Assembly (NCBI GenBank): GCA_024741835.1
Contig: JAENRP010000632.1
Location: 1 to 14,292, forward strand
Source of the DNA: Diplocarpon mali
Taxonomy: Eukaryota > Ascomycota > Leotiomycetes > Helotiales > Drepanopezizaceae
Direction of reading: 5' to 3'
DNA length: 14,292 bases
The position numbers and the translations under genes are program-made. The notes beneath the pieces were generated by a model, which made no database searches, was not told the origin of the DNA, and worked only from the letters and a program-made list of their open reading frames with translations. Of the stretch, positions 468 through 14,292 are shown piece after piece (position 1 is the first letter of the stretch; every line of letters starts with the position of its first letter).

Positions 468-1403
468 GACTTCTCTATCATATGCTGATTCCACTTGTAG
501 GCCGGGCCTACGAGTTAGATTTTCCTTATTAGTTAGTTCCGCTAAGGGTAGTAGCATTTTCTAAGCAGCAGGAACTACAAATTCCTATCTCTCTGTTTTA
601 TTATTAAAATAGTTTATAGTATACTCGGCGAGATAGATCATCTTTTCTTTTGTAATAAGTAGACTATATTATGACTATTATAGGCCGAGGGTGTTTAAAA
701 TTATCTAATCAGAAAGGGCCAGACTGTTATGCCACGCGGGATCGTCTTTTATAGTCTAAATAGTAGCGTGTATAATAGTGCTTAAGAAACTAATAAATTT
801 TCTACCTCTTACCTTATTGCCTTAGAGTTTCTTTATACCTTCTTAGATAGTGAAATGATTTAACACCTATATAGCCTTTGCCACTAGTTAGTATATCTTA
901 AAAATTTTGCCAAGCCCTTGTAGGGCGTTATTAGCGGTGATATCAGTTATAAAGTAGGTCTGGAAAAGTGTACTACAAATGCTATCTATAAATTGCATTA
1001 ACCTTTTCATATACTTATTTTTCTTATCTCAGTTCTTTTGAAATAAATTAATTAAATTAGCATACCCTTAATACTCTTATAAAAACTTCTCTCGATTAAT
1101 ACCTTTGCCTTAGAGTTCCTTATCTAAGAAATCATCGAAACCTAAGAATCCTTCCTTAATAGTAGAAATTCTATAGTTAAGCACCTTAATAGATAAATTC
1201 AGGAATACCTGCTGTTCTATCTCGCCTAACGTTCTATAGGTGCTTATAATATCTTCTAATAATTAAAGAGTCTTCTTATCTTATGAGAATCCACCTTCTA
1301 ATATTAGTTTATTGCTAGATATTGCCAAAGACTTGCTGCCTAAGGCAATAAGTGATATATTCTTTTTAGGTATGACCTTTTTGCCTATGCTAAGGGGGGC
1401 CAT
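468..1403 (-). pseudogene. Decayed gene B, N-terminal part of an unrecognised paralogous family, truncated
   Basis: Reading the minus strand from an ATG at 1403-1401 gives one frame (starting MAPLSIGKKV) to 468, broken only by TAG/TAA/TGA and without a frameshift. I do not recognise the protein. It is clearly related to the N-terminal part of gene A: both have STY-x-x-LG-(D/E)-IE about 40-60 residues in, EL-x-x-KGI-x-(K/R)-E-x-FL, then AKAI-x-(I/V)-LN, QEG and a basic GN-(R/K)-(I/V)-R-x-R-x-FI block near 870-770, then YSLLI and YFNNK/FFNNK. Palindrome copy 1 (493-515) is read in frame as LTRRPGLQVES, at the place equivalent to copy 4 in gene A. The gene is cut at 467/468 by the GC-balanced repeat segment, losing about two thirds of the length seen in A. 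Function is unknown; a mobile-element or repeated gene is likely because it was subject to RIP. Confidence 0.65.
493..515. repeat. 23-bp palindrome, copy 1 (in gene B)
   Basis: Left arm ACTTGTAGGCC, centre G, right arm GGCCTACGAGT. This is the best-preserved copy, with a single mismatch between arms (C-to-T type). On the minus strand it lies in the gene B frame in the common phase and reads T-R-R-P-G-L-Q-V. It is the copy nearest the non-RIPed segment. Confidence 0.9.
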
Positions 1404-1877
1404 AATAAATTATTTGACAAAAGTGATAAGGTTCCTTACTAAGGAATAAATCTCTAGAAAGAATTTTATTAAGATAGGAGGCTTAGATTAGAAAAGATTA
1501 ATGATAGAAAGACAGTACTAGTAGTATTATTAGTGCTAGTAGGGTTATAGAAGAAGTAAAAAAAAAGTAAAATCGTAGTGCGGGAAAAGGCTTATTTATA
1601 GAGTTTGGAATTGTACTAGTGCATAAAGAAAAAGTGGGTATAATAAGCCTGGAAGTAGGAATAAAAGTGGGATGTAATATATATAAGGACCTACTTTTGG
1701 TAAATAACAATTGTCAAAGGTAAGGACGATATTTCAAAGGTAAGCGTTAGAAAGTTGCATATAAAGGAAATAATTAAAGGATAGATTATATAAAGAATGA
1801 AGTAAATAAAGAATATATATAGAATGGAACAATAGGTTGAGAATAAAGAGGGGCAGGTGTATAGAAGGTAGATAATC
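1404..1877. other. Intergenic region, probable promoter side of gene B
   Basis: No coding frame was found. The plus strand is purine-rich with long A/G runs, so the strand upstream of gene B is pyrimidine-rich, as is common in fungal promoters. It separates the stop of gene A (1878-1889) from the ATG of gene B (1403). I see no terminator, no LTR pair and no palindrome copy here. Confidence 0.45.
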
Positions 1878-2139
1878 CTAAAAAATTCAACTTCTAATTT
1901 GCAATTTCTCTAAATGATTTTTCAAAGGGGGTAGTAGACTCGATTCTCCAGATCGTTCGACTTAATTATCAGTTTTATTATCACTTCGGAGTCTTCTTCT
2001 CTTGCATTAGTTCTCGCTTCTTAGTGATTTTTCAGCTTTAGGGACCTCTCTCAAAGGATCTTCTATTAGTACCCTTAGATTTAGTGGCTGAAGTTTATCC
2101 GAACTATCTTATAGGCTAAAGCTGGCCGAGTCCAACCTT

Positions 2140-2162
2140 ACTCGCGGGCCAGGCTTGCGAGT
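2140..2162. repeat. 23-bp palindrome, copy 2 (in gene A)
   Basis: Left arm ACTCGCGGGCC, centre A, right arm GGCTTGCGAGT, with two arm mismatches. On the minus strand it lies in the gene A frame in the common phase and reads T-R-K-P-G-P-R-V, in the polar C-terminal part of the protein. Confidence 0.9.
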
Positions 2163-3024
2163 CAGTCTTGGCGTCTCTAAGCTTAAGGGTAAAAATAAGG
2201 GATTGGTTCTTAAATCAGGGTCTAGCACTATACTAGTATTACAGCTTATCTCTTTTTCGAATTTTCTTATAATAATATCTTTATTAATTAGTGCATTAGG
2301 CTCTTAAATAGCATTTACTTTATCGCATTATCCTTAAGACTTAAGTCTATAAAGAAGCGACTTAGTATTTGTAATATTCGTCTAAGCCTTAATAAGGGCA
2401 TTAAAGAGCTTCTGATTATATTTTATAAGGTAGATTTTCAATTTATCTTTATTAAGAAGAAATAACTCTTATACTTCGATTATAACTGATAGATCTATCT
2501 AAGAGCGTCGACCAATAATAGCTTTAAAGAGGCTGCCGCAGTTCTTAAGATAAAAAGCTGCCTTGAAAGGTGCAGTAGTCCTACTTATATTAATCTATCG
2601 AGGTACTAGAGGTTGCTTTAGAGCAAAGACTGAAAAGATAAGATTAGAGATTTGAGTCTTATTTTCCAAGGTGTTCTTATTGCGAATGGCTATATAGTTG
2701 TTACAAAAGGCCATAAAACCACTAGTCCTATAAGGATTGTCCGAAAGCATTTTAAGAAGGTGTCCCTATTTTATTATTACTATAATTAGATTGCTATTAT
2801 TAGTAATAGGTCGCAAGATCTCCTTTTGCTTTAATTTTGCGATCATTTAAGCTAGTTGAGATTTTAAACTAAGTGCTTAAGAAGTCTATCGACTTATCTT
2901 CTTCGCAGATAAAGTGAGTTTTACATTTGATTAAGAGCTGACCTACTTATTAAGGCTTCTAGAAGCTGGCCCTTGTCCGATTGGTAGGATCTAATAATCT
3001 AAGACTTGCTTTCTAATAAAATTA

Positions 3025-3047
3025 ACTCATAGGCTAGGACCGCGAGT
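3025..3047. repeat. 23-bp palindrome, copy 3 (in gene A)
   Basis: Left arm ACTCATAGGCT, centre A, right arm GGACCGCGAGT. The left arm has decayed with C-to-T and G-to-A changes. In the gene A frame (minus, common phase) it reads T-R-G-P-S-L-stop-V; the stop is TGA, consistent with an original CGA (Arg). Confidence 0.88.
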
Positions 3048-4410
3048 GAAAATCGGAATTTCTTTATTAGCAGCACTTATATCTCTCTTTATTAAAACGA
3101 CTTAATTATAAAGACTAAGGCCAATCAATTAAGGAGGTTTAGGGTAGGCTATAAGCTGATAGGCTCCTCCACTTTTCGCTATTATAGCTAAGAGGTAGAG
3201 TCTATAATGCATCCAAAGGACTTATTAAGTAAGACTAAATATCATATTATAAAGAAAATAAGAAGGTATAGAGGTCGCGTTATCTATAGGGCAGAAGTGA
3301 TAAAGGTATATCTCTACTTCTTATCTTATAATAGAGAGGAATGTACTTATAAAAGCACTATTATTAGTAGTAAAATTGTCGGTTAGGAAGCGGTATCCGA
3401 AGGGTTTAGGCATTATAATTAACCCTTCTTCCTTTATTTCCTCTTACTATTTATTACTTAATAATATCGAAAAGAAAGAGTTATTCTATTTAATCGGCTT
3501 TAACGCCTTTAAGGCTTCAGGATCAGCCTTGAATTTTACAGCACTTAGAGATGCCTCTATTATTAATAGGTTGGATTTGCATATCTTTGAAGAGACAAAG
3601 AATTGATTATTAAGGTAGATTAGAAAAAGATCGATATCTTCTACTATATAGAGAAGTTTAAGGTATTTAATAGTTTTATTAATATCAAATCCTTTATAAT
3701 TAAGACTATAGTAAACCGAAAGAGAGCAAATATAAAGGTCGCAAAGTCTTCTCCCTTCGATTCCTACGCTAGGAAGATACTATCGAAAGCAAGTCTTTAT
3801 TATAGAGGATACTTAAATGTTATATCGTTCTCTAAGCTTAAGGTTGAGAATGACCGATTGAGGCACGTTGCTATAATTACAAATGTCCTAATCAATAGAT
3901 TCCTCTTTGCATTCTCTTTCTTATAAGACAAAATAGTCTCGCTTAGCATCTGAGAGACTAGGTTCTTGACTTTTATAATTATTAAAGAATTGAATAATAT
4001 CTATAGGGGCGAACTTGTTTAGGATAAGCTATTAAATCTATCTAATAGCTCTCTTAATTGTCTTTAGAGTAATAGGAATAGGGTCTTCCCCTATATTGTC
4101 GTTTTTAAAACGGTTGTATATAAATATAAAGAAGTCAAGAACTAGCTCCTTTAAGTTATTAGGAAAGGAGTCTAAGTGAGCGCGCAATCCTTTGGTTTTA
4201 AATTGCAAATTAGCTAAGGTAGCTATTAAATGATTTATCTTTCTTAAAGGTCGAGCTAAAATAGGTTGTTCAATTAGAGGAGAGTCCCTTGAAGATTCCG
4301 AAAATTCCAAAGAGGCTATACTAAGCGTTTAAGCAGTTTGTTCGACAGCGGTTTTTAAAATCATTTCGGCAAAAGGTAGGTTAGGTCCAGTTCTAAAATT
4401 CTCATTTCTA

Positions 4411-4433
4411 ACTCCTAGTCCAGGACTGCGAGT
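4411..4433. repeat. 23-bp palindrome, copy 4 (in gene A)
   Basis: Left arm ACTCCTAGTCC, centre A, right arm GGACTGCGAGT. In the gene A frame (minus, common phase) it reads T-R-S-P-G-L-G-V. It sits at the position matching copy 1 in paralogue B. The flank GTGATTTG before ACTCGC on the minus strand is shared with copy 8. Confidence 0.9.
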
Positions 4434-5279
4434 CAAATCACGTAGTTTAGCACTTATTATATCTTTAGATTAAGAAGCGAATTTCAAGGCAGGCTTAACC
4501 ATAAATAACTAATTCCCTTTTTTATTATTAAAGAAATCTCATTTAAACCTTAGTATAGGAGTCTAGTTCTCTTTTAAAATAAGCAAACTATAAGTAGACG
4601 CGCGGAGCCTTAGTATATTGATAATAGTACTATTAGGTAGGGTAATATCTATAGCTTAATTTGATCTTTTTATAGCTTTATCAGCTGCTATAAGTACTGC
4701 ATTAGATAAGCCTATAAATCTGCGACTGCGAATTCGATTGCCTTAGAATTTTACTACTCCTTCTTAAATGATAAAGAAATTGAGAATCTAAATAGCTTTA
4801 GCTATAGGAGTGTTTTCTTTGAGAATTTTTAATAACACTTGCCTTTTATTATTAGAATCAATATTTATTAGAAAGCGCGAATGAAACAGGAGTCCTCTCT
4901 TATTAGTGGCTAAATTATCCAGTCGTTAGATAGATTCTTCTCTTTTATCTTAGTCCATTTTGAAAGTATCGGCCAAGGTTATGTATTAATCTGCGTCAGC
5001 TAAGAATTCCTCTTTAGAGATTCCCTTTAGTCTTAATTCTTCAGTTAGGAAGTTGTTAAATTAGAGAATTCTAAGGGCCACTTAGGTTAAAAGGTTGTTA
5101 ATAGCATTCGCGTAAGCTAAAAGGAGTTTTTATTACTCTATATCTCCTAAGGCTGCGTAGGTCGATTTAAAGCTCTCTAATAATACAATAGCTCTACTGT
5201 CCTAAGAGAAGTTTATAACTAGTGCTTATTTATCTCCTATCGCAGTAGATAAAACCATTTGTGAGTTCTTTAAAGGCAT

Positions 5280-5551
5280 ATTACTTATAAAAGATGGGGA
5301 GTATAAATAAGAGAATTTAATAAGATATAAGATTAAAAGCGCATACAAGCTGCAATAGGTTTGCTTTATATATATCAAGGAAATTGGACTTTTTATTTAT
5401 TATTTAAGGAAAGTAATAGGAATATTATAATTAAAGGCCAATATCAAGAATGCAAAATAAGTCAAAGCAGGCAAGAATTTAAGGTGATCCTAAAAGATCC
5501 ATATCTTAAATAATAAAGGAGGCGACCTCGCCGAAAATGTAAAAATAAGGA
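5280..5551. other. Gap between gypsy pol end and gene A start
   Basis: There is no coding frame. It is AT-rich and purine-rich on the plus strand, so pyrimidine-rich upstream of the gene A ATG. A gypsy 3' LTR would be expected here if gene A is independent, but I could not find a matching repeat upstream of gag. This leaves open that gene A is a third ORF of the retroelement. Confidence 0.4.
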
Positions 5552-5672
5552 TTAGAGGAAGGTAAGACAATTGATAGGCTAGAAAATCGTTTAGTATTCC
5601 TACTTGCGTTCTTCAGATATTTTAGGAATAATAACTTAAGGTTGCGATTAATTAGGTATTTTAATATTCTTC

Positions 5673-5695
5673 ACTCGTAGGACCGGCTTATAAGT
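5673..5695. repeat. 23-bp palindrome, copy 5 (in gypsy pol, after integrase)
   Basis: Left arm ACTCGTAGGAC, centre C, right arm GGCTTATAAGT. In the pol frame (minus, common phase) it reads T-Y-K-P-V-L-R-V, in the C-terminal tail past the GPF module. The minus-strand flank is AATTTG. Confidence 0.88.
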
Positions 5696-7107
5696 CAAAT
5701 TAGAAAAATCTTAGTCTTTATCTAAGGGTTTAAAATTGCTTATATTGCTATCAGTTCCTGCAGAAGATTCAGAGGTTGTATTAATTTCTAATTCGTCTTC
5801 TAAAGGGAATAAGGTCTGGTCGCGTTGATAAAAGCGCTTTAGTCGGTTGGCTGCGAAGGTTCCTTTAATATCGACTCCGTTAAATTCCTAAAGAGAATAG
5901 TATCCCTTTTCTTCCTACTTAGATTTAACCTTAAATGGACCAAGCTATCGATAGTCAAGTTTAGTATCAGCTAATATATCAATACTTCTTATAACGTTAT
6001 AGACTAGGATAAGATCATCTTTTCAAATAGGGTGCGTTTTAAGTACTTTAGAAGTAGCTTATGCTTCCTTAGCTTTTTCCTAATATCGTTTCTTTTATAG
6101 AATGATTTCCTTTATATCTATATCTTAAAGCTTAAGTTGTTAGCATCTTATTGCTAGTAAATCGGAACGGTTCTGAATTTGACTATAGTTAAACAATCTC
6201 TAAATAGGCTATTGGGATTTAAGAGGGAGCTATGCCTCTCTGTTATAAATAAGGAAAAATAGTATAACTCCAGTCGGTTTATAGATTATCGTTCGATAAG
6301 CAAAGAGTATTTTATAAAAGTATTTTATCTAATTCTTAAATCCTCTATAGGTAACTTTAGATAGCTTATCTAAAATATTGCAATATCCTTACTCTACTAT
6401 TCCATTAGCTTTCGAGTTATATGCTAAGATTTGAACCTGTTTGATGCTATATTTTCGCGAAAAAGCTTTAATTACTCCTTTATTTTCAAGGCCTCTATTA
6501 ACAGTTAGTCTGCTAAAAAGTCTATAGCAACAGACTACGTCTTTCTAAAGGAACTTTGCAATAGATTCAAAGTTAGCAGATCTTAAAGGTTGTCCTTTAA
6601 GCCATCTTAATAGGTCTTCCTTTATTAGAATAAAATATATAATCCCATTTTCGGTTATTAATACTTATATAATATTAAGACTAACTTTATAGAAAAGGCC
6701 TAATGGCCAGGTTAGGAATAGAGGATTCTCTTTATAACTAGGTTTTCGTTTCTAATAGGGGACGCAACTTTTCACAAAGGCTTTGCAATCCTTAAAAGAA
6801 CCTTTTTAAAAGAATTTCCTTAAGAGTTAGTGGTAGGTGGACTCAGCTCCTTAGTAGCCAGTCTCCTTGTGAATATCTTAAATAGCCTTAGCTTGCAGTT
6901 TGTTATCATTTAAATAGAGCTATATAAGAAATGAGTTATTACTCCTTTTGAACAATTGTCTTTCTTATACTAAATAAATCAGAGCTTTAGCTTTGAATTT
7001 CTAAAAATCCTTAGGAGCAACTATCTTTAGTTGTTTAAGCGTGATTAAAAATTTTGCGATTTCTTTAGAGTCACTTGAGTAGTTAGGTGATAAAATTCTC
7101 TTATTTG

Positions 7108-7130
7108 ACTCGCGGGCTAGGACCGCGAGT
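7108..7130. repeat. 23-bp palindrome, copy 6 (RNase H-integrase linker)
   Basis: Left arm ACTCGCGGGCT, centre A, right arm GGACCGCGAGT, extended by G/C to 25 bp. The pol frame passes through it unchanged (RNase H and integrase are in the same frame), but in a different phase from the other coding copies, reading L-A-V-L-A-R-E-S. On the minus strand, ACTCG is doubled at its entry (ACTCGACTCGCGG). Confidence 0.9.
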
Positions 7131-9074
7131 CGAGTCCCTTTAAGGCGATATATTAATAGATAACTAACTTCGTTCTTTACTTACTTATTAATATCTATTT
7201 CGTCTTTTTCAATCAAATCAGAAGGGTAAGAACGAGTTCTTCTTAAAAGGCCGTTAGCGGTAGTGTTTTTCATTCCTGGAATGTGTTTGACTTCAAAGTC
7301 CATTAGTCTTATTTAAGCAATCCATTTTATTAGCAAGGCTCTAGGTAGGTCGCTTGCAGCTCTATTCAGTTGTTCTACTAGCACTTTAGCATTAATTTCA
7401 AAGATAAAGTAAGTGCTATAAAGGTCGCTTCTTATCTTTTTTATTGCTTTTAAGGCTCCTTTATATTCCTATTTAATAGTATTATACTTTATCTTCGCTG
7501 GATTCTAAAGACTACTTTCAAAGCGAGCTAGATGTCTTCTCTACTAGCTATTAGCTTATTGAAGGACGGCACTTTATCTGATTAAGCTTGCGTCAACTGT
7601 TAGTATAATTAGCTTAGCATCAGCTCTATAGTCTATTTTAATCAGATATAGCGCTTTAAGCAACGCCTGCTTTAGTTGTTTTATAGCCTCTATTTAGGGT
7701 TCCTCCTACTGAAACTCAGCCCCTTTCCAGAATAAGGAATAAATAGGTGCTGCCTTTTTAGCAAAATCCTTGATCTATATGCGATAGTATACTATAATGC
7801 TAATGAACGCGCGAGCTTCTGCTATATCGTCATACTTCTTCCATTTGTCGATTTTAAGTACTTTAGCCCTTTGAGGACTTCGGCTATTGGAATCTGTAAT
7901 AAAACTAACAATTTCCATTAATAGGAGATAGTATTATAACTTCGGACTAACTATTGCTCCTGCCCTTTCGAATTGTATAAGTACCTAGTCTAGGTTCTGA
8001 ATGTATTCTATTATAAATCGTTATATGCTAAGGAGAACTTCTTCGTAGTTATAAAATGATCTTGATCCTTTTACTCCTATATCGTCTATATAAGGGAGTG
8101 CAATATTAGGTATGCAATCTACTAGTATCTTATAGATTACTTAGACAAATTAAGCGATCGAATTTGTAACCTCTTAAGGTAATCTTATCATCTGAAGTAG
8201 CTTAAGAGGGGTTTGAATTGCTATTATATCTCTTGATTTAATATTAAGAATAAATTGATTATATTTAGAAAAGAAGTTAATAAGAGAGCTGCGGGTTAAT
8301 CCTGCGAATTTATTTAAGAACTCATCTATATTCGGAGGAATGTTGGCGTCTTTAACAGTTACTCGGTTCATCTCTACTACTGCTATTATTAGTTTATAAG
8401 TTCCCTTCTCTTTTTTAGCAACTAGGAACTATTTATTCTTATAAGGGCTATTATAGAACTCGAGAACACCTTGCTTTAGCTTATCCTTTAACATTTCAAT
8501 TACCTTTTCTTAAAGAGCTTTAGGGACCTTAAATGTTTTCTCTTGCCAAGCTTTATAAGGTATTGTCTTAATCTTAATATAAGGTATGACTTCTTCTCGA
8601 ATCTGACCTAGTTCCGTCTAGTTAAAAGCTAAGGCGTCCTCTCGATTTATCAAGGTTTTATAAAGGAGTTCGCGTTCTTACTCTATTAAGTCATCTCCAA
8701 TTTTCAATATATCGAAACGTTCTTTTATTAGCCGATATCCGATGGGTTTATTAGAAAATCTGCCTATAATGAACTTGTCGAATTTGCCACCCAGCTTCGG
8801 AGGTCGACGCTTCTTATCTTATTTAAACTAATTATCCAGTCCTCTAGGCTTTGAGCTATTAAAGATTCCCTAATCCACTAGTCGTACTTTGTTAGCCTTG
8901 CTTTTATATATAGTTTGAATATTAGCTAGTACTATGCTTTTCTACTTCTTTCCTTTTTTATTAAATCCTATAAAACGGTCCGAATTTTCCTTTTTAAAAA
9001 TAAATAAAAGATTTTCTAAGTCGTCAATTTGAAGTGCGTAAATGGAAATATTATTAGTAATTTTATTATTTTTC

Positions 9075-9097
9075 ACTTGCGGGTCTGGCCTATAAGT
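9075..9097. repeat. 23-bp palindrome, copy 7 (protease-RT linker)
   Basis: Left arm ACTTGCGGGTC, centre T, right arm GGCCTATAAGT. In the pol frame (minus, common phase) it reads T-Y-R-P-D-P-Q-V, in the low-complexity linker ahead of the RT domain. Confidence 0.88.
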
Positions 9098-9236
9098 GGT
9101 TTTTAGGTTTTTTAAAATGATTAATAAATTATCAAAATTTGTAAAATAAACTCTCTTCTCTACCTTATTTTTCTTTTTTCTTAATTATTAAGCTAATAAA
9201 ACGCTAATTGCACTATTTTTCAAAATTCTAGATTTG

Positions 9237-9259
9237 ACTCCTGGTCTAGGACTGCAAAT
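9237..9259. repeat. 23-bp palindrome, copy 8 (protease-RT linker)
   Basis: Left arm ACTCCTGGTCT, centre A, right arm GGACTGCAAAT. In the pol frame (minus, common phase) it reads I-C-S-P-R-P-G-V. The symmetry extends outward: GATTTG on the left and CAAATC on the right, giving a 35-bp imperfect palindrome (9231-9265). Confidence 0.88.
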
Positions 9260-9360
9260 CAAATCACTATTATTCAAAATCGACAAACTTACCTTTCTTT
9301 CGCTATAACTCCTCGCTAGGTGCCTTCTCTTACTAGTATTAAGCCTAGCCCTTATGCTAG

Positions 9361-12300
9361 CTAATCGTTTTCCAAAACCTCATTCTAGAATTCGGCTATA
9401 TCTCTTGCAATAACCATTTGTCCTTTTAAGGATCGATCTGTATTCTAAAGACTAGCTTTTATAAGACTATCTCTAGGATAGTTAAATGTTAGCTGAAATT
9501 TTAAAATAAAGGGCATTCTTAAAAGAATATTATTTAAAGAATTTTCCATTATTAGAAAGTTAGTATAATTAACGATTCCTCTGACTCTAACCTTTACGTT
9601 TTTCACCTATCTATTAAAATTGTATTTCGATCTAAAGATAGTCAAATAAATAAGGAGTCGATCGCTAACAATTATTAATTGAGCTATTTCTGCCACTTTT
9701 CTAATTATTGCATTAACTTCTAAATTATAATCGATTAAAGCCTTTGCTTTAACTGATTCTTCCATTAAACAAATAACAATAGGACTTTTTATTACAATTG
9801 CTAAACAATTTCAATTAATATTCTAAGATATTAAAGCTATCGCTATAATATTATAGTACCTTTAGGTTCCTTTATCTTTTACAATCTAAAGACATTTGAT
9901 TAAGGCTAAGTGCTTCTTAGAGTTCTTTTGCATTATAATTTCCATTTCCTTATTATTATTCAAATCTTTAAAAGCAACTGGGATATGCTTTCTTAGCACT
10001 TTATTAAAGCGTCCAGTCAAACCAAATAGGTCTTTAAACGTAAGGTTAATTTGCTAAGCTATAACATTCTCTATAGCTTTCTCTATTACAGTTGAACTAG
10101 TGTATTTATCGACGAATTTCTCCTATTTTAATATCTGTCTCTTTCGCTTAAGGTTAAAGGTCTACGCAATAACTTCAACTTCTTAATCTTTAAGCTTAAA
10201 GCTATCTTCGTCTATTATATCTCTGATCAATTCGTCTACTATATTGGCTTTATCCTTATCTACTGCAGTTCTAGACTATTAGGTATCTTTTAGCATTTAG
10301 ACTCTATATTAAGATTCCTAAGTTGCACGCGCTGATTTCTGGACTTTAGCTGGTTTTATTAGTGCTAGTAGAGTAGAAGATCTAAAAGGACGCTAAGAAT
10401 TCCAAGGGTTCCTAAATATAAAAGTAGTATTAATATTAGCTGAAATATTATTATTAACCTATCTTAAGATAAAGATGCCTCTAACTTCTATAGCTATTTG
10501 ATTAGAAGCTAGGTCCTTGAGAACTCCCTTAGGTAGATTATTAATTAGACTTATATATATATAAGTTGGAATTTTAGCGTTTATATCTATAATACGCTAT
10601 CGTTCGACTAAATTCTCGTCCTATTTTATACTATATATCATCGTTCGAACAGTCTATAACTATAAGCAATTCTAGTGCTTTTTAATAAGGATAGCTTCTG
10701 GCCTAGGATCTCTAATACAAAGTATCCTATACTTATTAATATGCATAACCCTAGTGTTAATAAAACAAAGGAAAAGAGGACAATCGTTGCAATACTTATA
10801 TAAAGCGCAGTTAAGTTCTTCGTTATTGCAAAAGTTGCAGGTTAGTTGTCTTCTATTGCCATTTCCTTAGTACCCTATAGCATTAATATTAGCAAAGTGC
10901 TAGCTAGGATCAATTCCTCCTTCTTTAGCCAGCTATTACATTCTTATATTAGCTGGTTGTTCCAAATGATAAGAAGCAGGAGTCTAGTAATAAGAACTAC
11001 TAGGTTGGCTTATAGTGGCTGAGTTTTGCCTATTACCAAATTGCAGAATATGCTATTTTTCCTATAAGAGATTATTAATCTTAGTTTCTAAGCTCTAGAT
11101 TTAAAGTTTTACAAATTGGGTCTTAAGTTCCTTAATTCTAAGGTTGGATCTTACTCTTAAGTCAGGCCTGCGAGTGAAAGGTATAACCACTAGGTTCTTC
11201 TTTGCCTCTTCTATAACTTTTAAAGCTTTCGAGTGTTCTTGGACCAGGCTCTTAAGGTCTTTAGTATAAAAGGGAGTAAGGGCTTTTTCCTACTCTATAG
11301 CATTAATAGTTCTCTCACTAAGATCTGATTTCAAAGCAAAGGCCGAGAATTCCTTAAATAAGGCGAAGGTTATAGGGTCTTGCTTATTGATCCTAAAATG
11401 CTTGATAATCTTATTTCAAAGGCCAGTAGGTAATCCAAGTAAGAAAAGGCGGCCTTATTTAACTTTGCTAAGTATTTTCTAGCTGATTAAGGTATTTGAT
11501 ATATAAGTAAAAGTCCGATAGTAGTTCTTAAGTTCCTTAGGAGTTTAAGTGACTAGAATAAATTCCTTTAAGAAAGCTAGAGTATTGCAAATCTGCTATC
11601 TGTCAAATTCTCGGAATTCAGACTTAAGAGCCTTAATAAGGAGTTCCTATAAATTATACGTCTTCTATTCAAAGAGGGATTTGATAATATCTTTACTTAT
11701 ATAGTTATAGTAGCGAGGGAGCCGAGAAATCATATCTGCTTATAAAATACTAAAATCGTAATAAGTTTCCTTATATTACTTAAGGAAATTAGTAATATTA
11801 GCTCTTATAAAGTGAAGAGCACTAGGGGAACTAAGGAGGGGAAAGTGGCTAGTAATAGCCTTAAATGCGGCCATTATTGTTTTATACTAACTGTCTAGGT
11901 TAATAGAATCTATAGGAGGCATAGGGGAAGCCTTAATATTATATAATTAGTTACTAAGAGGAGTACTTCGAAATTCAAAAGGGCTTAAAGAATATTCAAA
12001 ATCTGAGTTAATCTTAAAGTAACTAGGACGAGTTTGAAAAGATTTAAATAAAGGGTTAGTAAAAAGTTTAAAATTGTTATTATTTTTAATGTTTTCTAAT
12101 ATTAATATTAAAAAAGTAAGTGGCAATCTTAAGTTGTTTAAGGACGTCTTTTTATCCTCCTACTTATAAGCTAAGCTTAGGAGTAGAATTCCGGATTCTA
12201 TTAAAAGTTTAATCCGAGTTTGCTAAGAGATTTTAAGTAGGTGCTAAATAGCTAATAGGATTATTATAACTAATCGCAATAAGATAAGGTTTACCTAATC

Positions 12301-13168: not shown

Positions 13169-13191
13169 ACTTGCAAGGCGGGACTAGGAGT
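13169..13191. repeat. 23-bp palindrome, copy 10
   Basis: Left arm ACTTGCAAGGC, centre G, right arm GGACTAGGAGT. It is the first of three copies in the non-coding region 3' of copia pol. The right flank CAAATTT resembles the flanks of copies 4, 5 and 8. Confidence 0.85.
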
Positions 13192-13234
13192 CAAATTTCT
13201 TAAAAGATATTCCTTTATAAGACTATATAACTTA

Positions 13235-13257
13235 ACTTGCAGTCTAGGCCTAAGAGT
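13235..13257. repeat. 23-bp palindrome, copy 11
   Basis: Left arm ACTTGCAGTCT, centre A, right arm GGCCTAAGAGT. It is the middle member of the tandem array and is preceded by the first copy of the 28-bp spacer repeat, whose last four bases (ACTT) are the start of the palindrome. Confidence 0.85.
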
Positions 13258-13295
13258 CGATTTAAAAACTTTCCTTTATAAGACTATATAACTTA

Positions 13296-13318
13296 ACTTA
13301 TAGGGCGGGCCTAGGAGT
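13296..13318. repeat. 23-bp palindrome, copy 12
   Basis: Left arm ACTTATAGGGC, centre G, right arm GGCCTAGGAGT. It is the last member of the array and is preceded by the second copy of the 28-bp spacer repeat. Confidence 0.85.
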
Positions 13319-13350: not shown

Positions 13351-14292
13351 TTACAACCCTAGTATATCTTTAAATGCTTTAAACTTTACAACTATCTTTA
13401 GTGGCTTTATAAATCCATTTGCTACTATTCGATCGGTTGGGATATAGGTAATTAATAATTTATTCTTTATAATAAGGTTGCAGATAAAGTAGTAGGTAAT
13501 ATTAATATATTTCGACTGCTTATATAAGTATAGGTTCTTTGCGAGTGCAATCGCCCTTGTATTATCTGCTTAAAGATTAAAACAGTTCCTGTCTTATTTA
13601 ATATACTTAGCGAAACTTATATCTTTTAGAACTTAGGCGATTTATAATCCTTATTTGCAATTTGATAATATTAATATATATTCGGCCTTAGTGCTTGCGG
13701 TAGCTATTGATTTCTACTTCCTACTTCTTTATAATATAGGTCTGCTATATAGTACTATTACGCTTCCAGATATACTTTTCCGACCTTTTATATTTGCCTA
13801 GTTAGAATCGGTATATACCTTAAGCTTTGCGCTTATATATTTCATTAGTCTATATCTTACCTTCTATATAATTATCAATCGAAGGTACCTTTTAAGTCGC
13901 TTGACTATATTCTTATATCAAATCGTCAGATCCTTTAGGTTCTGACTAAGTTGCTTAATAATAAAGGCAATATCTGGTCTTATATATACTATAGTATATA
14001 TAATTGCTCTAATATCCTATTAGTACTTCTTTAGATCTCCTCTCTACTTATTTTTATTAGCAGGCTCTAACTTATTATACTTTCCTTCGATTAGAGTACG
14101 CTTTAGCTTAAAGTTGGGAGTATAAGTAGAGAGTCCCATTCGGTCTAGGATCTTCTTAATATACTGCTCTTAATCTAATTAGAGTTCTTAAGTAGAGCGG
14201 TTCCTTATAATATAGATGCTAAGGATCTTATAAATTCCCTTTAGATCCTTAGTATTAAAACGTTTCCGAATTATTATAAAGAACTAATCTAA
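13351..14292 (-). pseudogene. pol: Decayed Ty1/copia pol, C-terminal part (end of RT and RNase H)
   Basis: The minus strand from the window edge to TAA 13353-13351 is one frame with stops at Gln/Trp-like positions. It begins inside the C-terminal part of the copia reverse transcriptase (YIKKILDRMGLSTYTPNFKL, about 14165-14105). Then come YIRPDIAF and the connection. RNase H starts at KVYTDSN (Asp 13809-13807), followed by GRKSISGSV, STKAEY (Glu), and the ADNTRAIAL box (Asp). The end is the usual copia tail, YIPTDRIVANGFIKPL then FKDILGL-stop. All three RNase H acidic residues remain, though stops make the gene dead. Gag, protease, integrase and the RT core lie outside the window to the right. 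There are no palindromes inside this coding part; three lie just after its stop. Confidence 0.9.

Follow-up and report, generated by a model that had tools for sequence, protein, structure and literature searches.

The 14,292-nt contig JAENRP010000632.1 of Diplocarpon mali (assembly GCA_024741835.1), referred to here at its full length as the window, carries gag, pol and two further long genes, A and B, of a decayed gypsy-type long terminal repeat (LTR) retrotransposon. All four contain a short GC-rich palindrome, scored here by matches to the 23-nt consensus ACTCGCRGGCCNGGCCYGCGAGT. At a threshold of at least 16/23 the window holds 12 matches (at 493, 2140, 3025, 4411, 5673, 7108, 9075, 9237, 11153, 13169, 13235 and 13296). 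Nine lie within the genes, where the reading frame is preserved across every one of them, and eight of the nine are read in the same codon phase, ACT CGC RGG CCN GGC CYG CGA GTN (phase 0; P = 9.7e-4 at a chance of 1/3), which gives the peptide pattern L/F-T-x-x-P-x-x-x-V. A chance origin of the palindromes is ruled out by 20 first-order Markov replicates of the window, which together gave a single match of 16/23 and none above 16, and by a reversed control that found no place in the assembly. The genes and palindromes are listed below in order of position.

468..1500, minus strand: gene B, N-terminal part; in other copies it continues past this contig's join at about 467
493..515, minus strand: palindrome in gene B, phase 0, LTRRPGLQV
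1850..5400, minus strand: gene A, from stop profiles; Pfam matches none of its three pieces; paralogous to gene B and collinear with it
2140..2162, minus strand: palindrome in gene A, phase 0, LTRKPGPRV
3025..3047, minus strand: decayed palindrome in gene A, phase 0 (from the gene-wide frame), FTRGPSL-stop-V
4411..4433, minus strand: palindrome in gene A, aligned with the gene B site at 493, phase 0, LTRSPGLGV
5650..12100, minus strand: gag and pol of the decayed gypsy; stop profiles give the frames, and Pfam recognises RNase H and integrase H2C2
5673..5695, minus strand: palindrome near the C terminus of pol, phase 0, LTYKPVLRV
7108..7130, minus strand: palindrome with RNase H on one side and integrase H2C2 on the other, phase 1, the sole exception
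9075..9097, minus strand: N-terminal palindrome of the pol frame, phase 0, TYRPDPQV, in a piece without a Pfam domain
9237..9259, minus strand: palindrome in the pol frame upstream of 9075, phase 0
11153..11175, minus strand: gag-region palindrome, phase 0, FTRRPDLRV, present also in a shorter gypsy relative
12162..12184, no strand assigned: decayed palindrome (14/23), probably in the 5' untranslated region, not phase 0
13169..13318, no strand assigned: three palindromes beside a copia-type element, 66 and 61 nt apart

Gene frames were assigned by gene-wide stop rates after masking the palindromes together with the 6 nt flanking them on each side. Stop rates in the chosen versus the two other frames were 0.050 versus 0.096 and 0.144 for gag, 0.045 versus 0.100 and 0.133 for pol, 0.046 versus 0.106 and 0.116 for gene A, and 0.058 versus 0.104 and 0.110 for gene B. 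These masked frames agree with the preliminary description of this DNA, which had nine palindromes read through in frame, eight of them in one phase, and they leave 7108, where a GACTCG adjoins the palindrome's own ACTCGC, as the only departure. Local stop counts are weak at 3025 (7 versus 9 and 11). In Pfam searches, 7108 is flanked on the pol pieces by RNase H and integrase H2C2, which share one frame; two further pol pieces, the three gag pieces and the three gene A pieces had no match, nor did a gene A piece find a homologue at E 0.001. Genes A and B are collinear paralogues, with 31.7% identity over 1060 aligned residues in locus L017.

The phase bias extends to further copies. Thirteen gene stretches, picked from stop profiles in the window and in seven other loci (L009, L010, L011, L014, L017, L019 and L021), contain 43 genic palindromes, 42 of which are in phase 0; the ratio is 38/39 without four whose gene is doubtful because they lie beyond the match of L011 to gene B (L011:3781, 3871, 3910 and 3997). 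The local stop counts at L009:6476, L014:6704 and L014:6749 are weak too. With arrays counted once, phase 0 is found at 15 of 16 places (12 in the window's gypsy, two in copia and two in a second gypsy; P = 7.7e-7 at 1/3), and with three A/B homologues dropped at 12 of 13 (P = 1.7e-5 at 1/3 and 1.7e-3 at 1/2). This count omits clusters 2, 4, 5, 8, 12, 17 and 26 (clusters as defined below), to which no gene frame could be assigned. Strict 240-nt flanks gave a phase to only 7 of 21 clusters (four phase 0, two phase 1, one phase 2); these calls, together with stop rates pooled over both strands, which often left the strands tied, were replaced by the gene-wide frames. Stop-free open reading frames of at least 110 residues place L011:5984, L013:8440 (cluster 12) and L015:3403 (the 7108 site) in phase 2 on one strand. 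For the sampled loci, both the phase bias and the presence of the palindrome in several LTR families are solid.

The preliminary description connected the bias with the absence of stops from the preferred phase and with the palindrome encoding the same peptide in either orientation. The core is indeed open in phase 0; inspected by hand, however, the bare 23-nt core is stop-free in every phase, so that its openness leaves the bias unexplained, and the palindrome reads alike from both strands in every phase, so that strand symmetry does not single out the chosen one. A left outer arm of the form TTG-ACT, or a right one of the form GAGT-GA, creates a TGA in one other phase (also by hand). Stops alone can nevertheless be ruled out as the cause, as the 35-nt unit has one further open phase. 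Since that phase is open yet unseen, peptide tolerance, or copying between places that are already in frame, would have to add to stop avoidance.

The shared unit is longer than the 24 nt proposed earlier. Base preferences extend 6 nt past the core on each side, giving a unit of about 35 nt, and these flank preferences are inverted rather than direct repeats. In the outer arms at 21 site clusters, all 42 half-flanks have a purine (A or G) at position 2; positions 1, 2, 3, 5, 6 and 8 exceed the 95% null, positions 2 and 6 also the 99.9% null, and position 4 falls below. The core is usually a near-palindrome: of 29 site representatives, only 7 have positions 5 and 19 paired. At L006:229, a homologous copy of the window site 9237, the predicted hairpin spans the full 35 nt (-21.4 kcal/mol versus -6.4 shuffled). 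A 35-base palindrome pattern matched 26 places, whose coordinates or flanks suggest the 7108 site.

Across the assembly (49.4 Mb, 676 contigs), 1317 places match the consensus with at most three mismatches, compared with none for the reversed control. Copies were compared in the window and in loci L001 and L003 to L054 (L002 is a duplicate and was left out), a non-random sample picked mostly for good matches. Its 186 places with at least 16/23 fall by flanking sequence into 34 clusters: 21 sites or arrays used as representatives, 8 small or split-off array members and 5 chance-like clusters, which are single, off-consensus and mostly GC-rich, the other 29 having surroundings of 0.27 to 0.47 G+C. 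The carriers are the A/B-bearing gypsy of the window, an apparently shorter gypsy relative (~3 kb), a second gypsy (RVT_1 and RNase H domains) and a copia element (gag, pre-integrase, protease-type, SH3-like and RVT_2 domains); three more palindromes lie beside a second copia. The placement between domains suggested by the preliminary description is borne out at the four sites where domains could be placed, all of them outside recognised Pfam domains: 7108, copia between gag and the protease-type domain, copia between the integrase SH3-like domain and reverse transcriptase (RT), and the second gypsy after RNase H. The gag pieces and the 9075 piece have no Pfam domain. No match of at least 18/23 occurred in ten 5-kb stretches taken at fixed positions from ten contigs, a weak negative, as a uniform density would predict only about 1.3 matches reaching 20/23; the three matches of 16 or 17 in them are chance-like. 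A palindrome scoring 15/23 or more was absent from four copies of a DDE_3 transposon; a DDE_1 locus had one match at 15/23, off consensus. The DDE_3 family itself is decayed and occupies 34 places in the genome. Neither prokaryote genome contigs nor viral contigs contained an exact match to the palindrome, and a literature search, with subscription papers largely outside its reach, found no recognisable description of this palindrome family.

Within a family, the palindromes travel with their hosts. The pol stretch across 7108 was matched without internal length change in 147/147 scored matches (144 of 777 nt, three ending one or two residues early) out of 274 candidates, the 127 unscored ones being where copies without the palindrome could sit. 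Because all scored matches span 7108 at full length, copy number reflects amplification. Independent recent insertions at the 1317 places are unsupported, since copies within one family share the same places. Furthermore, the palindrome was kept in 680 of 695 aligned copy pairs; the other 15 comprise eight array differences, one decayed copy and six alignments between paralogues, in which the second site of gene B is set against gene A of other copies (56 to 58% identity, gap 1 to 12 nt), gene A having no palindrome there. The place of 2140 has 16 copies among the loci, all at least 20/23 and most picked as good matches. By alignment offset, the decayed 12162 palindrome falls at about the place of the better palindromes L011:5984 and L013:8440.

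Gene B of L017 has four palindromes, the first and third of which align with those of gene A and the fourth lies near one of A's; at the second, gene A is shorter by 20 residues, which is more than one lone palindrome. Places aligned between A and B hold different unit variants (e.g. L006:5060 and 8981), as separate arrivals would give. Arrays have periods of 39, 45, 48 and 54 nt; translated matches reveal only differences in multiples of three. The second gypsy has one palindrome in L009 and two (+45 nt) in L014; among the matches listed, 57 have the one-palindrome length and two are longer by 45 nt, and the other listed matches, which begin only at residue 31 to 42, are read as the two-palindrome form, as checked in L014 alone. 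Among matches that are complete or almost so, the copia integrase-RT linkers measure 519 to 633 nt. Two arrays of a 48-bp unit with a palindrome core, L011:6943-7196 and L019:7142-7308, differ in length. The trio at 13169..13318 includes a spacing (61 nt) not divisible by three, and two of its palindromes sit in neighbouring 61-nt units that are 80% alike.

Most of the window is AT-rich (about 0.28-0.36 G+C per 1-kb step away from the left end) and bears a signature like that of repeat-induced point mutation (RIP), with CpA 0.54, TpG 0.53 and TpA/ApT 1.32; together with the types of element this points to a filamentous fungus. A and B (window 468-5400; L017:1702-9268) are two long genes downstream of pol, A without a Pfam match, and a gypsy carrying both would total 15 to 16 kb when stretches of two copies are summed. 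The right end of the window (13725-14292) matches L011 at 93% and adjoins a copia-type RT. The left end (1-467) has a G+C of 0.50 versus 0.33, and its first 54 bases are repeated exactly at 414-467; gypsy matches to most other copies end at 467-497. This left end looks like an assembly join or contig-end repeat.

We propose, with a probability of about 0.5, that the palindromes belong to a family of coding palindromes, similar to Rickettsia palindromic elements (RPEs) or mitochondrial GC clusters, which was dispersed among LTR retrotransposons before these amplified and decayed. GC-cored near-palindromes of about 35 nt, many of them capable of forming hairpins, would have been dispersed among gypsy and copia elements of a fungal-type nuclear genome, and copies landing between protein domains or in untranslated parts would have persisted, nearly all genic survivors examined adding the L/F-T-x-x-P-x-x-x-V peptide in one phase. 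The host elements would later have amplified, carrying the palindromes along, some places would have expanded into tandem arrays that remain in frame, and RIP-like mutation would then have killed the elements. Placement, phase bias, the shared unit, carriage by amplification, arrays and the RIP-like signature are directly observed in the sampled loci; past mobility of the unit is what we infer from them. Candidate routes of movement are copying between retroelement RNAs during reverse transcription and repair-mediated copying. As to why phase 0 won, stops would remove one phase, and peptide tolerance or in-frame copying presumably removed the other. A bolder version, in which a selfish palindrome parasitises LTR retrotransposons as a class, spreading between co-packaged RNAs during reverse transcription, multiplying as its hosts amplify and surviving in genes only in the phase of a harmless peptide, would make it a eukaryotic, retroelement-bound counterpart of RPEs; it seems to us rather unlikely.

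Several observations weigh against the proposed dispersal. The loci compared yielded no empty site of a lone palindrome, no target-site duplication and no encoded enzyme. Comparison with homologues lacking the palindrome, all of them within-genome copies, gave only units of 45 and 54 nt and the 20-residue A/B gap. The clear indels consist of palindrome plus spacer, the 54-nt one being plainly tandem, and the added blocks of 24, 27 or 30 nt anticipated earlier were not seen in the copies compared, the 7108 stretch being of full length throughout its scored matches. The sample includes hardly any host genes. Compensatory evolution of the two arms was tested and is not significant: 224 of 319 positions are paired versus 218.8 ± 6.7 with shuffled arms, a count reached by 1222 of 5000 shuffles, and only 11 of 21 representatives fold at least two standard deviations better than mononucleotide shuffles. 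Finally, the gene B palindromes show 0, 0 and 1 transversions versus 6.3, 7.0 and 6.5 expected (L017-L011, L008-L011 and L017-L008; five palindromes, four of them in gene B, in subfamilies about 76% identical), a deficit that suggests maintenance rather than neutral tolerance. L024-L011 (1 versus 6.8) and an A-to-B paralogue stretch between L017 and L008 (2 versus 5.7) give similar figures. These comparisons are non-independent, and their sites were found by query match, which biases the counts somewhat downwards. In pooled within-cluster pairs, some flanks of which are not fully homologous, transitions amount to 12.4% in the palindrome versus 12.7% in the flank and transversions to 0.4 versus 2.4%.

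Such maintenance would be expected if the palindrome were a functional cis-motif, a binding site or an RNA hairpin for expression, packaging or reverse transcription, selected and exchanged by recombination, for which coding linkers are merely where it can be borne. The deficits in gene B and in the pooled pairs, and hairpin energies well below shuffles at the 11 better-folding representatives, speak for such a motif, as does its presence in several families at places without a gene frame and with high match (cluster 5, 11/11 at least 22/23; cluster 2, 13/13 at least 21/23, in copies mostly picked for good match). Yet the elements hold nine or more irregularly placed copies each, positions 5 and 19 usually mispair, arm covariation is not significant, and a DNA or RNA motif has no need of so strong a phase bias. 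Moreover, in gag a deficit of transversions is not evident when the palindrome is compared between the two gypsy relatives (1 versus 1.9 to 2.2 in four comparisons; 2 versus 3.5 in L012-L013), and gene A between the window and L013 gives 0 versus 0.6. On balance a cis-motif is doubtful, though not a negligible explanation. We consider it quite unlikely that the palindromes are simply an in-frame minisatellite, a unit plus spacer of 39 to 54 nt that changes number by slippage or unequal exchange and was moved between elements by ordinary recombination. The array periods and the varying copy number fit this well, as do copia copies in which L051 is without exactly 54 nt (18 codons), one of the two tandem units of L019 and L010, and the four copia matches, among those listed, that fall 30 to 60 nt short of the usual 552 (one was inspected). 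Many places are nonetheless single-copy, only about 35 nt are common to places, and spacers differ between arrays.

The phase bias would also fit selection acting on the peptide, TxxPxxxV being either a site of polyprotein processing or a flexible linker favoured between domains, and the domain boundaries at which the two copia sites and the second gypsy site lie are where such a peptide would be placed. We give this explanation little credence: the 7108 palindrome is out of phase and yet retained at full length in its 147 scored matches, base preferences reach third codon positions and the outer arms, and gene A, for which no processing is known, holds three sites. The dispersed coding family remains our preferred account. 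If it is indeed a nuclear, retrotransposon-tied family with near-uniform phase, the idea of coding palindromes, described so far for a few prokaryotes, would extend to eukaryotic mobile elements; the palindromes would offer a natural record of the tolerance of gag and pol for added peptide, and a test case for the dispersal of very short hairpins without an enzyme of their own.

Known systems resemble the family to different degrees. In translational bypass elements the insert is skipped by the ribosome and hence has no phase requirement; the phase bias argues against such elements here. Miniature inverted-repeat transposable elements are likewise short inverted repeats dispersed in a genome, but the palindromes are far shorter and show no target-site duplication; no search for a related transposase was made. 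The published systems below are compared as far as the available portions of their sources describe them. Targeting of palindromes by nested insertions (PMC6911290) was considered but dropped, since the palindromes here carry no insertions. Fungal GalEa copia elements share a conserved palindrome-based hairpin, but at one site, beside the 5' LTR in the position of the primer-binding site (PMC5445492), rather than at many coding sites. PARCELs are palindromic tandem coding units, in some taxa tied to mobile elements, as here; they encode 25-residue amphipathic repeats in open reading frames of unassigned function (PMC2996958), whereas the present unit is about 35 nt, often single, and encodes another peptide. 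The yeast mitochondrial GC clusters (GC42) are likewise short GC-rich palindromes in AT-rich surroundings, with constrained stems and merging or shuffling (PMC4478555); other fungal mitochondrial palindromes have also been described (PMC7218506). Nevertheless, GC clusters are mitochondrial, whereas these palindromes lie in LTR retrotransposons of a 49.4-Mb assembly and are read in frame, and strain presence/absence and a target dinucleotide are reported for GC clusters, whereas the copies compared here show neither presence/absence of a lone palindrome nor a target footprint. RPEs and the coding palindromes of Wolbachia and Methanocaldococcus are dispersed in frame at tolerated positions of unrelated protein genes (PMC2996958, PMC10969869, PMC2229807). 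Compared by description only, RPEs differ in measuring about 100-150 nt (published sizes run from 105 to about 150 nt) and residing in prokaryote genes, while the unit here is about 35 nt in a eukaryotic-type genome and has so far been seen only in or beside LTR retrotransposons. The likeness to RPEs drawn in the preliminary description nonetheless holds, in that in-frame palindromes occur here too at many unrelated coding places, in several genes and element families.

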